Source of the DNA: Comamonadaceae bacterium
GTDB taxonomy: Bacteria > Pseudomonadota > Gammaproteobacteria > Burkholderiales > Burkholderiaceae_C
Assembly (NCBI GenBank): GCA_027488115.1
Contig: JAIYCG010000001.1
Span: forward strand, 124,001-188,000
DNA length: 64,000 nt
Direction of reading: 5' to 3'
The notes beneath the pieces were generated by a model. It saw only the letters and a list, made by a program, of their open reading frames with translations. It searched no databases and had not been told where the DNA came from. The translations under genes were made by a program, and so were the position numbers. Shown here in pieces: positions 35,109-37,893 of this stretch (positions within the stretch are counted from its first letter, which is position 1; each line of letters begins with the position of its first letter).

Positions 35109-36215
35109 TTACTGACGCAAAACCAGCCACCAGAAAGTAGCCAGAGAAATGATGCTGTAGATCATCGCCGGCGCGGCAGCGGTCAACCAAGGTTGCCAAT
35201 TTTGAAGATTGCCCATAAATCCAAAGACGTTGTTGAGCAAATAAAAACTGATGCCCGCCATGACACCCCCAAACACATAGCCTGCAATGTTGCCTGATCT
35301 GAAGTGCAAATAAGCAAAAGGAAGTGCAAGTGTCAACATGACCCAGCAGCTGAGAGGGTAGAAGACTTTTCGCCAAAACTCAATCTCATAGCGTTGTGGA
35401 TTTTGCCCATTCGCTGCCAAATGCCTCATGTATTGAAACAAATCGATGGTCTTCATTCGATCTGGACTCAATAGCGCTGCTGCAATCATTTCCGCGCTGA
35501 TTTCTGTTTTCCAAGACCATTCAGCAAGTTTCAAAATTTCTATTCGTGATTCTTCAGAGCTTGTCGTATGAAAAACTCTGCGATCGACAGACTTTAAAAG
35601 CCAAGCACCATCACTCATCAATTGAGCAGTGGGTGAGATGGTCATCGACTTTAAGCGCCCCTCGTTGTCAAACTCATGAATTCGAATGTTTTCTGGCTGG
35701 CCCTCACTGCTCATGGATTTCACATTGACCGCAAATTGTGATTGCGCTTGTTTTTCTCTGAGCCAAGCGCCAGTTTGACCCACGGTTATTTGGCCTTGGT
35801 AATGCGCCTTCAACAGTTGTGCCTGCTTGTCAGTCCAAGGTGAAATGTAATCACCAAAAATGAAGGTGACCGTGACAAAAATAAGCCCCAGTTGGAACAG
35901 CGTTTGAAGTGCAAGCCATGGCCCGAGTCCGCCAGTTCTCAAAATGGTGAACTCAGAGCTCTGCGCGAAGCGAGCCATGACAAAGATAGAGCCAATCAGG
36001 ACGGAGATGGGCAACAACTCATACAAATGACTGGGCATGAGCAAGGCCACATACATCAGGGCATGCTGCAATTGATAACCTTGAAATTTGTTTCGACTCA
36101 ATGTCTGAAGTTGATCGACCAAGTCAAAAAAGACAAAAAGTGCCAGAAAACCTATCGCCACAAAACTGACCGCGCGAATAATTTCGCCATGAATTAATCG
36201 ACGAATGGTTTTCAC
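35109..36215 (-). CDS. lptG: LPS export ABC transporter permease LptG
   Basis: 368 aa; N-terminus MKTIRRLIHGEIIRAVSFVAIGFLALFVFFDLVDQL, LptG/YjgP-YjgQ membrane topology; GTG start at 36215. Confidence 0.9.
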   Translation of the reverse strand: MKTIRRLIHGEIIRAVSFVAIGFLALFVFFDLVDQLQTLSRNKFQGYQLQHALMYVALLMPSHLYELLPISVLIGSIFVMARFAQSSEFTILRTGGLGPWLALQTLFQLGLIFVTVTFIFGDYISPWTDKQAQLLKAHYQGQITVGQTGAWLREKQAQSQFAVNVKSMSSEGQPENIRIHEFDNEGRLKSMTISPTAQLMSDGAWLLKSVDRRVFHTTSSEESRIEILKLAEWSWKTEISAEMIAAALLSPDRMKTIDLFQYMRHLAANGQNPQRYEIEFWRKVFYPLSCWVMLTLALPFAYLHFRSGNIAGYVFGGVMAGISFYLLNNVFGFMGNLQNWQPWLTAAAPAMIYSIISLATFWWLVLRQ

Positions 36216-36379
36216 AGGATGCCTTCAGTTTTGAGCTGCAAGGAAAAACAGAACATATTTTTCCGCGACAAATTGAAGTGAAGGAAAAGCAGCCACGCTT
36301 TCACGATTGTGGCTAAAACCACCACCTTGGCACCAAAACTTCGGGCCAAATCTTTTTGAATGGAAGAATGGAATAACAT
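36212..36379 (-). pseudogene. lptF: Truncated lptF remnant (N-terminal fragment only)
   Basis: MLFHSSIQKDLARSFGAKVVVLATIV matches the LptF N-terminus of Burkholderiales as I know it, then departs into KAWLLFLHFNLSRKNMFCFSLQLKTEGIL and stops, with the TGA overlapping the lptG GTG (GTGA). A full LptF is about 360 aa. Confidence 0.75.
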
Positions 36380-36402: not shown

Positions 36403-37893
36403 ATGAACTTCGAATTAAAAACTCTTTCGCTGGCAACAGCTGCTAAATCCGCTTCAGAACACCTGATTGTCCTCATTTCTGATCATTTTCAAGCCAAAAA
36501 AGACCCACTTTCTGCGCTGGTTCAGATAGCCGTGAAGGCCAAAGATTTTTCCAGCAAGACCGGAAAATTGCTTCATTTTTACGCTGCTCCTGGAATTGCA
36601 GCCTCCAAAGTGATGTTTTTAGGCGTTGGAGCAGCCTCTGCCTCTGACATCAAATCGGCCATGGCAGTTATCACCTCTGGTCTGAAGGCCACCGAAACAA
36701 AAAAACTAACGATCATCTCACCGGAGCCACTCAGTGCCCAATCTGTTCAAGCCTTGCTTGTCGGATTGGCGGAGGGCACCTATGTTTACGGTACCACCAA
36801 ATCCAAGCCCAGTTCACGCATGCTGAGTCAAGTTTGCTTAGGCCTGCCCAGCTTGAAACCAGAGGTGCAAAATGCCTTTGATGCTTCCGTTGGCATGATC
36901 CATGGCATTGAATTTGCCAAAGAGTGGGCCAACCGACCAGCAAACCATGCAACGCCCAGCATGCTGGCCAAGGCTGCTGCTTCCCTTGCCAAATCAGGCG
37001 GATTTTCGTGTGAAGTACTTGGCCCCAAGGAAGTCAGCAAGCTTGGCATGGGCTCATTCATGTCGGTGGCTCAAGGCTCTGCTGAGCCACTCCGCTTCAT
37101 AGTTTTGAATTACCAAGGCGGCGCCAAATCGGAGGCGCCCACTGTGTTGGTTGGAAAAGGCATCACCTTTGATACGGGTGGTATTTCCATGAAACCTGCA
37201 GCCGAAATGGATGAGATGAAATTTGACATGGGCGGCGCGGCCAGTGTCCTAGGCGTCTTCAAGTCCTTAAGTCTCATCAAACCCAAAATTAACGTTGTCG
37301 GCTTAATCCCCGCTTGTGAAAATATGCCCGACGGACTTGCTGTGAAGCCCGGTGATGTGGTGACCAGCATGAGCGGACAAACCATTGAAATTTTGAACAC
37401 AGACGCAGAAGGCCGACTGATTTTGTGTGATGCACTGACTTATGCTGAGCGATTTAAACCTCGTGCAGTCATTGACATTGCGACCTTGACGGGTGCTTGT
37501 GTCATTGCTTTGGGCGCCATTCGAAGTGGTATGTTTGCAACTGAAGACGAGTTGGCTCACAACTTACTCCAAGCGGGCGAGCAAGCCATGGACCTGTGCT
37601 GGAGAATGCCGCTTGATGATGATTATGCAGACGCACTCAAGAGCAACTTTGCTGATGTGGCCAATGTAGGGGGACGTGCAGGCGGCGTGATTATTGCCGC
37701 TAAATTTCTTCAGCGATTTACCAAAAAATACCCTTGGGCTCATTTAGACATTGCTGGAACGGCATGGCGAAGTGGCGCTTCAAAGGGCGCAACTGGAAGG
37801 CCTGTTGGCTTGTTGTTGCATTACCTGCTTTCACAGCAGCCTACCCAAGCTAGCTCTACTGCTAAAAAGTCAAGTCGATCAGCCGTCAAATAG
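36403..37893 (+). CDS. pepA: Leucyl aminopeptidase
   Basis: M17 signature NTDAEGRLILCDAL, VGKGITFDTGGISMKPAAEMDEMKFDMGGAA; start MNFELKTLSLATAAK at 36403. Confidence 0.95.
   Translation: MNFELKTLSLATAAKSASEHLIVLISDHFQAKKDPLSALVQIAVKAKDFSSKTGKLLHFYAAPGIAASKVMFLGVGAASASDIKSAMAVITSGLKATETKKLTIISPEPLSAQSVQALLVGLAEGTYVYGTTKSKPSSRMLSQVCLGLPSLKPEVQNAFDASVGMIHGIEFAKEWANRPANHATPSMLAKAAASLAKSGGFSCEVLGPKEVSKLGMGSFMSVAQGSAEPLRFIVLNYQGGAKSEAPTVLVGKGITFDTGGISMKPAAEMDEMKFDMGGAASVLGVFKSLSLIKPKINVVGLIPACENMPDGLAVKPGDVVTSMSGQTIEILNTDAEGRLILCDALTYAERFKPRAVIDIATLTGACVIALGAIRSGMFATEDELAHNLLQAGEQAMDLCWRMPLDDDYADALKSNFADVANVGGRAGGVIIAAKFLQRFTKKYPWAHLDIAGTAWRSGASKGATGRPVGLLLHYLLSQQPTQASSTAKKSSRSAVK

Follow-up and report, generated by a model that had tools for sequence, protein, structure and literature searches.

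Replacement of the canonical LptF by a second LptF, LptF2, encoded elsewhere in the genome, is well supported by our analysis of a freshwater bacterium of the Limnohabitans lineage. The alarm raised by a seemingly missing essential gene is most likely resolved by this finding, LptF function having passed to the second protein. We consider it likely that a duplicated LptF became part of a putative island for lipid A remodelling and displaced the canonical subunit, probably on two occasions, the stub of the original gene being left behind as a leader ORF. Model species cannot live without LptF, whose gene normally lies alongside lptG. The window (the whole 64,000-nucleotide stretch of DNA analysed) carries only a stub at that place.

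Results

The native lptF locus retains both ends of the gene joined in frame

The stub is genuine. The features of the locus, in positions of the window, are as follows.

36212..36379, minus strand: lptF stub, the first 26 codons and approximately the last 29 of native lptF joined in frame, as aligned with the intact lptF of loci L064-L068
36302..36379, minus strand: retained 5' part of lptF, codons 1-26, of which codons 1-16 (36332-36379) are nearly invariant
36212..36301, minus strand: retained 3' end of lptF, past the deletion junction, KAWLLFLHFNLSRKNMF against native LVWLLFRHFNLSWKNMF
36212..36215, minus strand: GTGA, in which the lptG start codon overlaps the TGA of the stub, a possible translational coupling signal
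35109..36215, minus strand: lptG, intact LPS export permease (TIGR04408 323 bits; PF03739 215 bits)
36403..37893, plus strand: pepA, divergent leucyl aminopeptidase, its 5' flank overlapping the lptF start region

The stub translates as MLFHSSIQKDLARSFGAKVVVLATIVKAWLLFLHFNLSRKNMFCFSLQLKTEGIL*, opening with MLFHSSIQKDLARSFGAKVVVLATIV. The original prediction had described a 55-codon lptF stub whose TGA overlaps the lptG GTG, an intact lptG beside it and a divergent pepA beginning 23 bp from the stub start, and the coordinates, translation and model matches bear out this description. Its assignment of the stub's opening to LptF is likewise upheld, 47 of the first 48 bases being identical to those of the intact L066 gene in a DNA comparison. 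It had further held that the frame then leaves the LptF family; here our alignment disagrees, as residues 27-55 (KAWLLFLHFNLSRKNMF...) correspond to the C-terminal tail of LptF in intact relatives (VWLLFRHFNLSWKNMF...), and the stub is therefore both ends of lptF joined in frame. An in-frame internal deletion has removed approximately 315 codons from a gene whose native product in relatives is 370 aa. The stub alone matched no Pfam or NCBIfam model; its homology to lptF rests on the DNA, and both ends align with the intact lptF of relatives. At 55 codons it falls well short of a complete permease. The adjoining lptG evolves under a dN/dS of 0.03-0.05 relative to its counterparts in relatives.

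A second, full-length LptF is encoded in the same genome

The genome-wide search for LptF that the original prediction had recommended turned up a second complete protein. A PF03739 search of the whole genome (G000) returned two full proteins, the LptG of the window and the following:

203557-204672 of contig C47 of G000: lptF2, 372 aa, TIGR04407

LptF2 scores 319.9 bits against TIGR04407 (cut-off 230), with residues 3-347 of 372 covered, and just 54 bits against the LptG model; it also matches solved LptF chains (6mjp_F, E 2.4e-35). Residues E84 and R292 (E. coli numbering), of the coupling helix and the nucleotide-contacting loop, are present in all rows of our alignment, whether native LptF (F1), LptF2 (F2) or the third group described below (F3). 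The gene is under strong constraint (dN/dS approximately 0.05-0.10), similar to that of native lptF, hereafter lptF1. It departs from the usual, though not obligatory, pairing with lptG, the two genes lying on contigs C47 and C36.

The LPS pathway looks complete, since LpxC, LptD and LptC are encoded in the genome; a check for such genes had also been advised. Among the options originally put forward, relocation of lptF comes nearest, because a full-length LptF is found elsewhere in the same genome. In its details it needs amending: a diverged paralogue has replaced the native gene, and seven relatives have both. The presence of full LptF2 contradicts an LptG-only transporter, and that of LpxC, LptD and LptC lends no support to a changed LPS state in the sense of LPS loss.

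lptF1 and lptF2 show a patchy distribution across the genus

Searching 90 genomes of the genus (Limnohabitans and relatives) revealed an lptF2 orthologue in 10, at 70-100% identity, the remaining full-length LptF proteins being at most 53% identical. Seven of the 10 (G076, G079, G060, G028, G054, G087 and G075) also have an intact lptF1 beside lptG, and in G040 lptF1 is cut by the contig end. The other two, G000 and G063, possess lptF2 and a stub, with no other lptF. G034 has a stub and no lptF was found in it; its lptF2 region is probably absent from the bin, which is 86% complete and from which ppk1 and the GT4 gene are also missing. The nearest relative of G063 and G034, G027, has lptF1, a ppk1 with no adjoining island and no lptF2. 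In the isolate G019 the island is present with ugd directly next to the epimerase gene and without lptF2, lptF1 being retained.

Comparison of the locus in close relatives, as the original prediction had proposed, thus yielded the same kind of stub in G063 and G034 and intact lptF1 in others. The states lptF1-only, lptF2-only and both occur among near-sister genomes whose LptG is nearly the same, and the pattern is one of patchy reciprocal loss.

Two further members of the genus, G030 (99% complete) and G071 (94%), gave no PF03739 match yet encode LpxC, LptD and LptC; contig gaps or masked stretches could account for this. Elsewhere in the family, G121, G327 (g33), G187 (g99) and G295 (g114) have two LptF matches apiece, which may represent further duplicated or split lptF genes.

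lptF2 lies within a putative lipid A remodelling island

Within contig reach, lptF2 occupies the same conserved island in all 10 genomes, mostly between ugd (or phoA) and the gene for a nucleotide-sugar epimerase. The neighbours encode PhoD, an Mpo1-like protein, a GT4 glycosyltransferase, LplT, Ugd, alkaline phosphatase, the epimerase, a PAP2 enzyme, an LPG-synthase-TM protein, an ArnC-like GT2, an ArnT-like transferase, an LpxF-like PAP2, Ppk1 and SixA. Catalytic motifs are visible for PAP2 (K-x6-RP, SGH and R-x5-H-x3-D) and for the epimerase (Y-x3-K). A GalA/Ara4N-type set, as judged by enzyme class alone, is present together: Ugd, epimerase, polyprenyl-phosphate sugar transferase, ArnT-type transferase and lipid A phosphatase. 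Scores lie below the NCBIfam equivalog cut-offs for ArnC (177 bits against 529), ArnT (133 against 567) and LpxF (112 against 400). The set resembles a known route in which LpxE/LpxF and RgtE/RgtF replace the phosphates of lipid A with galacturonic acid (PMC7663294). The island is predicted from its gene content to remove lipid A phosphates and to add a sugar, probably a uronic acid; that this is GalA, Ara4N or another sugar is a guess from the similarity to ArnC, ArnT and the epimerase. Genes for PhoD and PhoA phosphatases and LplT are also in the island (L164:432-9549), a content suggestive of membrane remodelling under phosphate starvation.

The island can do without LptF2, since G019 and several other genomes carry the island without lptF2. 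In G044 an island of the same kind (locus L285, G044:C62:10001-30000), again lacking lptF2, follows the canonical lptF-lptG downstream at a distance of a few kb and contains genes for PAP2, LPG-TM, ArnC-like, ArnT-like and LpxF-like proteins and the epimerase. At four ppk1 loci without the island (L296, L297, L299 and L300) another gene set is found, with a different GT4 glycosyltransferase (approximately 35% to that of the island). Envelope genes seem to be exchanged in the vicinity of ppk1, to judge from the different gene set that island-free genomes hold there.

A separate lptF clade is also found beside an ArnT-like gene

In six genomes (G003, G008, G016, G038, G051 and G073) the pepA-lptG interval contains no full lptF, and the one lptF that they have, F3, immediately follows an ArnT-like gene on its downstream side. 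F3 forms a separate clade within the genus (100/100, stem 1.46). Remnants of lptF, 25-48 codons in length, persist in the pepA-lptG gap of the F3 genomes (L145, L181, L183, L175, L177 and L179). By a rough estimate, a random site in 3 Mb would lie no further than 8 kb from either of two ArnT-like genes with a chance of 0.011, and two such placements would have a chance of approximately 1e-4. It is mainly this repeated nearness of lptF to ArnT-type genes that leads us to think the link functional.

Origin of lptF2, number of losses and substitutions in the cavity

In a tree with family outgroups, F2 is nested among its own lineage's lptF1 sequences (98/97, 100/97) on a stem of 2.03 changes per column, and duplication is therefore favoured over transfer. 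An AU test left two other positions of F2 unrejected, one beyond the lptF1 of its lineage (p 0.43) and one beyond that of the genus (p 0.11). A search for an outside source among 401 sampled genomes of the family found at most 48% identity in other genera at E values up to 1e-100, and a plasmid search gave no close match, all being under 60% and the top match 28%. A distant or plasmid origin was dropped for want of a close match in either.

A four-gene tree places G000 outside a clade (100/100) that unites G063, G034 and several lptF1-positive genomes, and for this reason lptF1 was probably lost twice, in G000 and in G063/G034. Both deletions begin at the same 5' point, codon 26, as would sooner be expected of one shared deletion than of two, and the shorter stubs are derivable from the longer form through a 39-nt loss between AAA repeats. 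A single loss of lptF1 followed by regain through recombination is possible; a single shared deletion would, given the tree, require regain in several branches.

At cavity positions, F2 carries P62, K317 and either D or E at 322, and in F3 R33 is replaced by Q in 6/6, with D/E at 322. In the Shigella structure, phosphate is contacted by R33 and K317 (PMC6744409). The predicted loss of phosphate contacts was not seen in LptF2; the protein gives no clear sign of a simple adaptation to phosphate-free lipid A, since it keeps R33 and has K instead of Q at 317. Changes are weakly enriched at LPS-contact sites in F3 (p 0.025) and not significantly so in F2 (p 0.22), and the LptG of stub genomes has no changes at LPS-contact sites compared with relatives possessing lptF1.

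The remnant is kept open and in phase with lptG

Where a full-length lptF lies upstream, in 77 loci, its stop codon overlaps the start of lptG (ATGA or equivalent); L077, whose lptF is cut by the contig end, shows the overlap as well. Eight of the nine stub or remnant loci keep an ORF that runs from the lptF start, remains open to lptG and ends in a stop-start overlap; the exception is L181, where the phase of the leader ORF is broken. The open remnants have five different lengths to the lptG start (164, 125, 143, 74 and 140 nt), all in phase. The joint chance of this, taken as the product of composition-shuffle chances per length, is approximately 5e-5, a figure that overstates the case, as the F3 remnants are related and L181 was left out. 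The encoded peptide is not conserved past approximately codon 16.

The simplest reading is that the stub is a leader ORF, presumably itself translated, that would keep lptG translated by coupling. Of 354 16-codon windows compared across 18 intact lptF genes, codons 2-17 show the highest synonymous conservation, as could be expected if this stretch overlapped the pepA control region or took part in translation initiation. A scan of the pepA-lptF gap for sigma-70 promoters found nothing above chance. The earlier suggestion that the stub is kept through overlap with the pepA 5' region can thus stand for the constraint on codons 2-17; it leaves the eight open, in-phase remnants unexplained.

Discussion

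Our findings can be assembled into the following model. The lptF2 gene is most likely an lptF duplicate that arose inside this Limnohabitans lineage, changed fast and then settled in the lipid A-modifying island. Its product would pair with unchanged LptG and LptB2 to export LPS; both this partnership with LptG and a specialisation for modified lipid A are inferred. Once LptF2 was present lptF1 would have become dispensable and been lost, probably twice; loss of native lptF, we propose, was tolerated because its role had by then passed to a second LptF. The deletion would have been kept in frame by the coupling of lptG translation to the upstream ORF through the ATGA overlap, and the first codons probably by their overlap with the pepA control region, so that the stub survives as a leader ORF.

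Two readings that would deny any replacement can be set aside as very improbable. An assembly or binning artefact, in which a full lptF is present at the locus but collapsed, had been among the original options. The stub sits deep within a 363 kb contig, two other assemblies hold stubs that are 39 nt shorter and each bear their own substitutions, and remnants occur in six more genomes; this recurrence makes an assembly accident unlikely. Hardly more credible is an exporter built on LptG alone, or the loss of LPS export. The window does hold the stub alone, and no LptF whatever was found in G034; yet full LptF2 is encoded in G000 and G063, the genes for LpxC, LptD and LptC are present, and the incomplete G034 bin is without ppk1 and GT4, the neighbours of the island.

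Of greater weight, though still unlikely in our judgement, is plain redundancy followed by drift: the duplicate would have reached the island fortuitously, one copy of either kind would have been enough, and random loss would have followed with no link to lipid A modification. Each copy is indeed dispensable in some genome, the island of G019 manages without lptF2, and the enrichment of F2 changes at contact sites falls short of significance. Against drift, two separate and unlinked lptF lineages, F2 and F3, have both come to lie by ArnT-like genes, both have long stems, and F2 was strongly constrained afterwards. Horizontal transfer of LptF2, possibly along with the island, from a lineage outside the sample, with displacement of the native gene, appears more doubtful again. 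It would suit the very long F2 stem, the tolerance of the AU test for an origin outside the genus lptF1 and the patchiness of the island at the ppk1 locus, but it sits poorly with the nesting of F2 in the lineage's own lptF1 and with the low identity of every candidate from other genera in the family sample. Duplication and displacement within the lineage, with the stub left as a leader ORF, is thus the account that we prefer.

The location of lptF2 and the appearance of a similar pattern more than once are unusual, and in the open-licence literature we found no report of LptF paralogues or duplication, of LptF associated with ArnT, or of lptF/lptG translational coupling like that seen here. 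The phosphates of lipid A have been named as key determinants of binding (PMC12738788), and the residues that contact them have been listed (PMC6744409). It is an attractive, if tentative, prospect, to which we give somewhat less than even weight, that the LptF subunit is swapped to match lipid A chemistry: a dedicated island LptF would handle remodelled LPS, dual-LptF genomes would run two versions of the exporter around one LptG, and some genomes would have gone over for good. Near-sister genomes with lptF1 only, lptF2 only or both constitute a natural subunit-swap experiment on lipid A recognition by LptB2FG. More generally, where an essential gene seems to be missing, the rest of the genome should be searched before a loss is called.

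Three known systems invite comparison. LptF2 resembles the LptF (YjgP) of the LptB2FGC exporter in being a full LptF by the curated model, by its match to solved chains and by its E84 and R292. It differs in that its gene lies outside the pepA/lptF/lptG locus, within the putative lipid A remodelling island, in being about 50% identical to the native LptF of its own lineage, and in its fixed changes at cavity positions 62, 317 and 322. The galacturonate modification of lipid A (LpxE/LpxF; RgtE/RgtF/RgtD) has been described in Rhizobium, Mesorhizobium, Oligotropha and Caulobacter (PMC7663294), and the island unites the same classes, namely a nucleotide-sugar dehydrogenase, an epimerase, an ArnC-like GT2, an ArnT-like transferase and a PAP2/LpxF-like phosphatase. 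Unlike that system, the island's similarity to ArnC, ArnT and LpxF is below equivalog level, and it includes an LptF gene, of which we found no report. Lastly, the case resembles paralogue displacement, in which a duplicate takes over and the original decays, and a short upstream ORF with a stop-start overlap could couple translation; it is set apart by the nature of the ORF kept in three lineages, the in-frame shell of a gene for an essential membrane protein.
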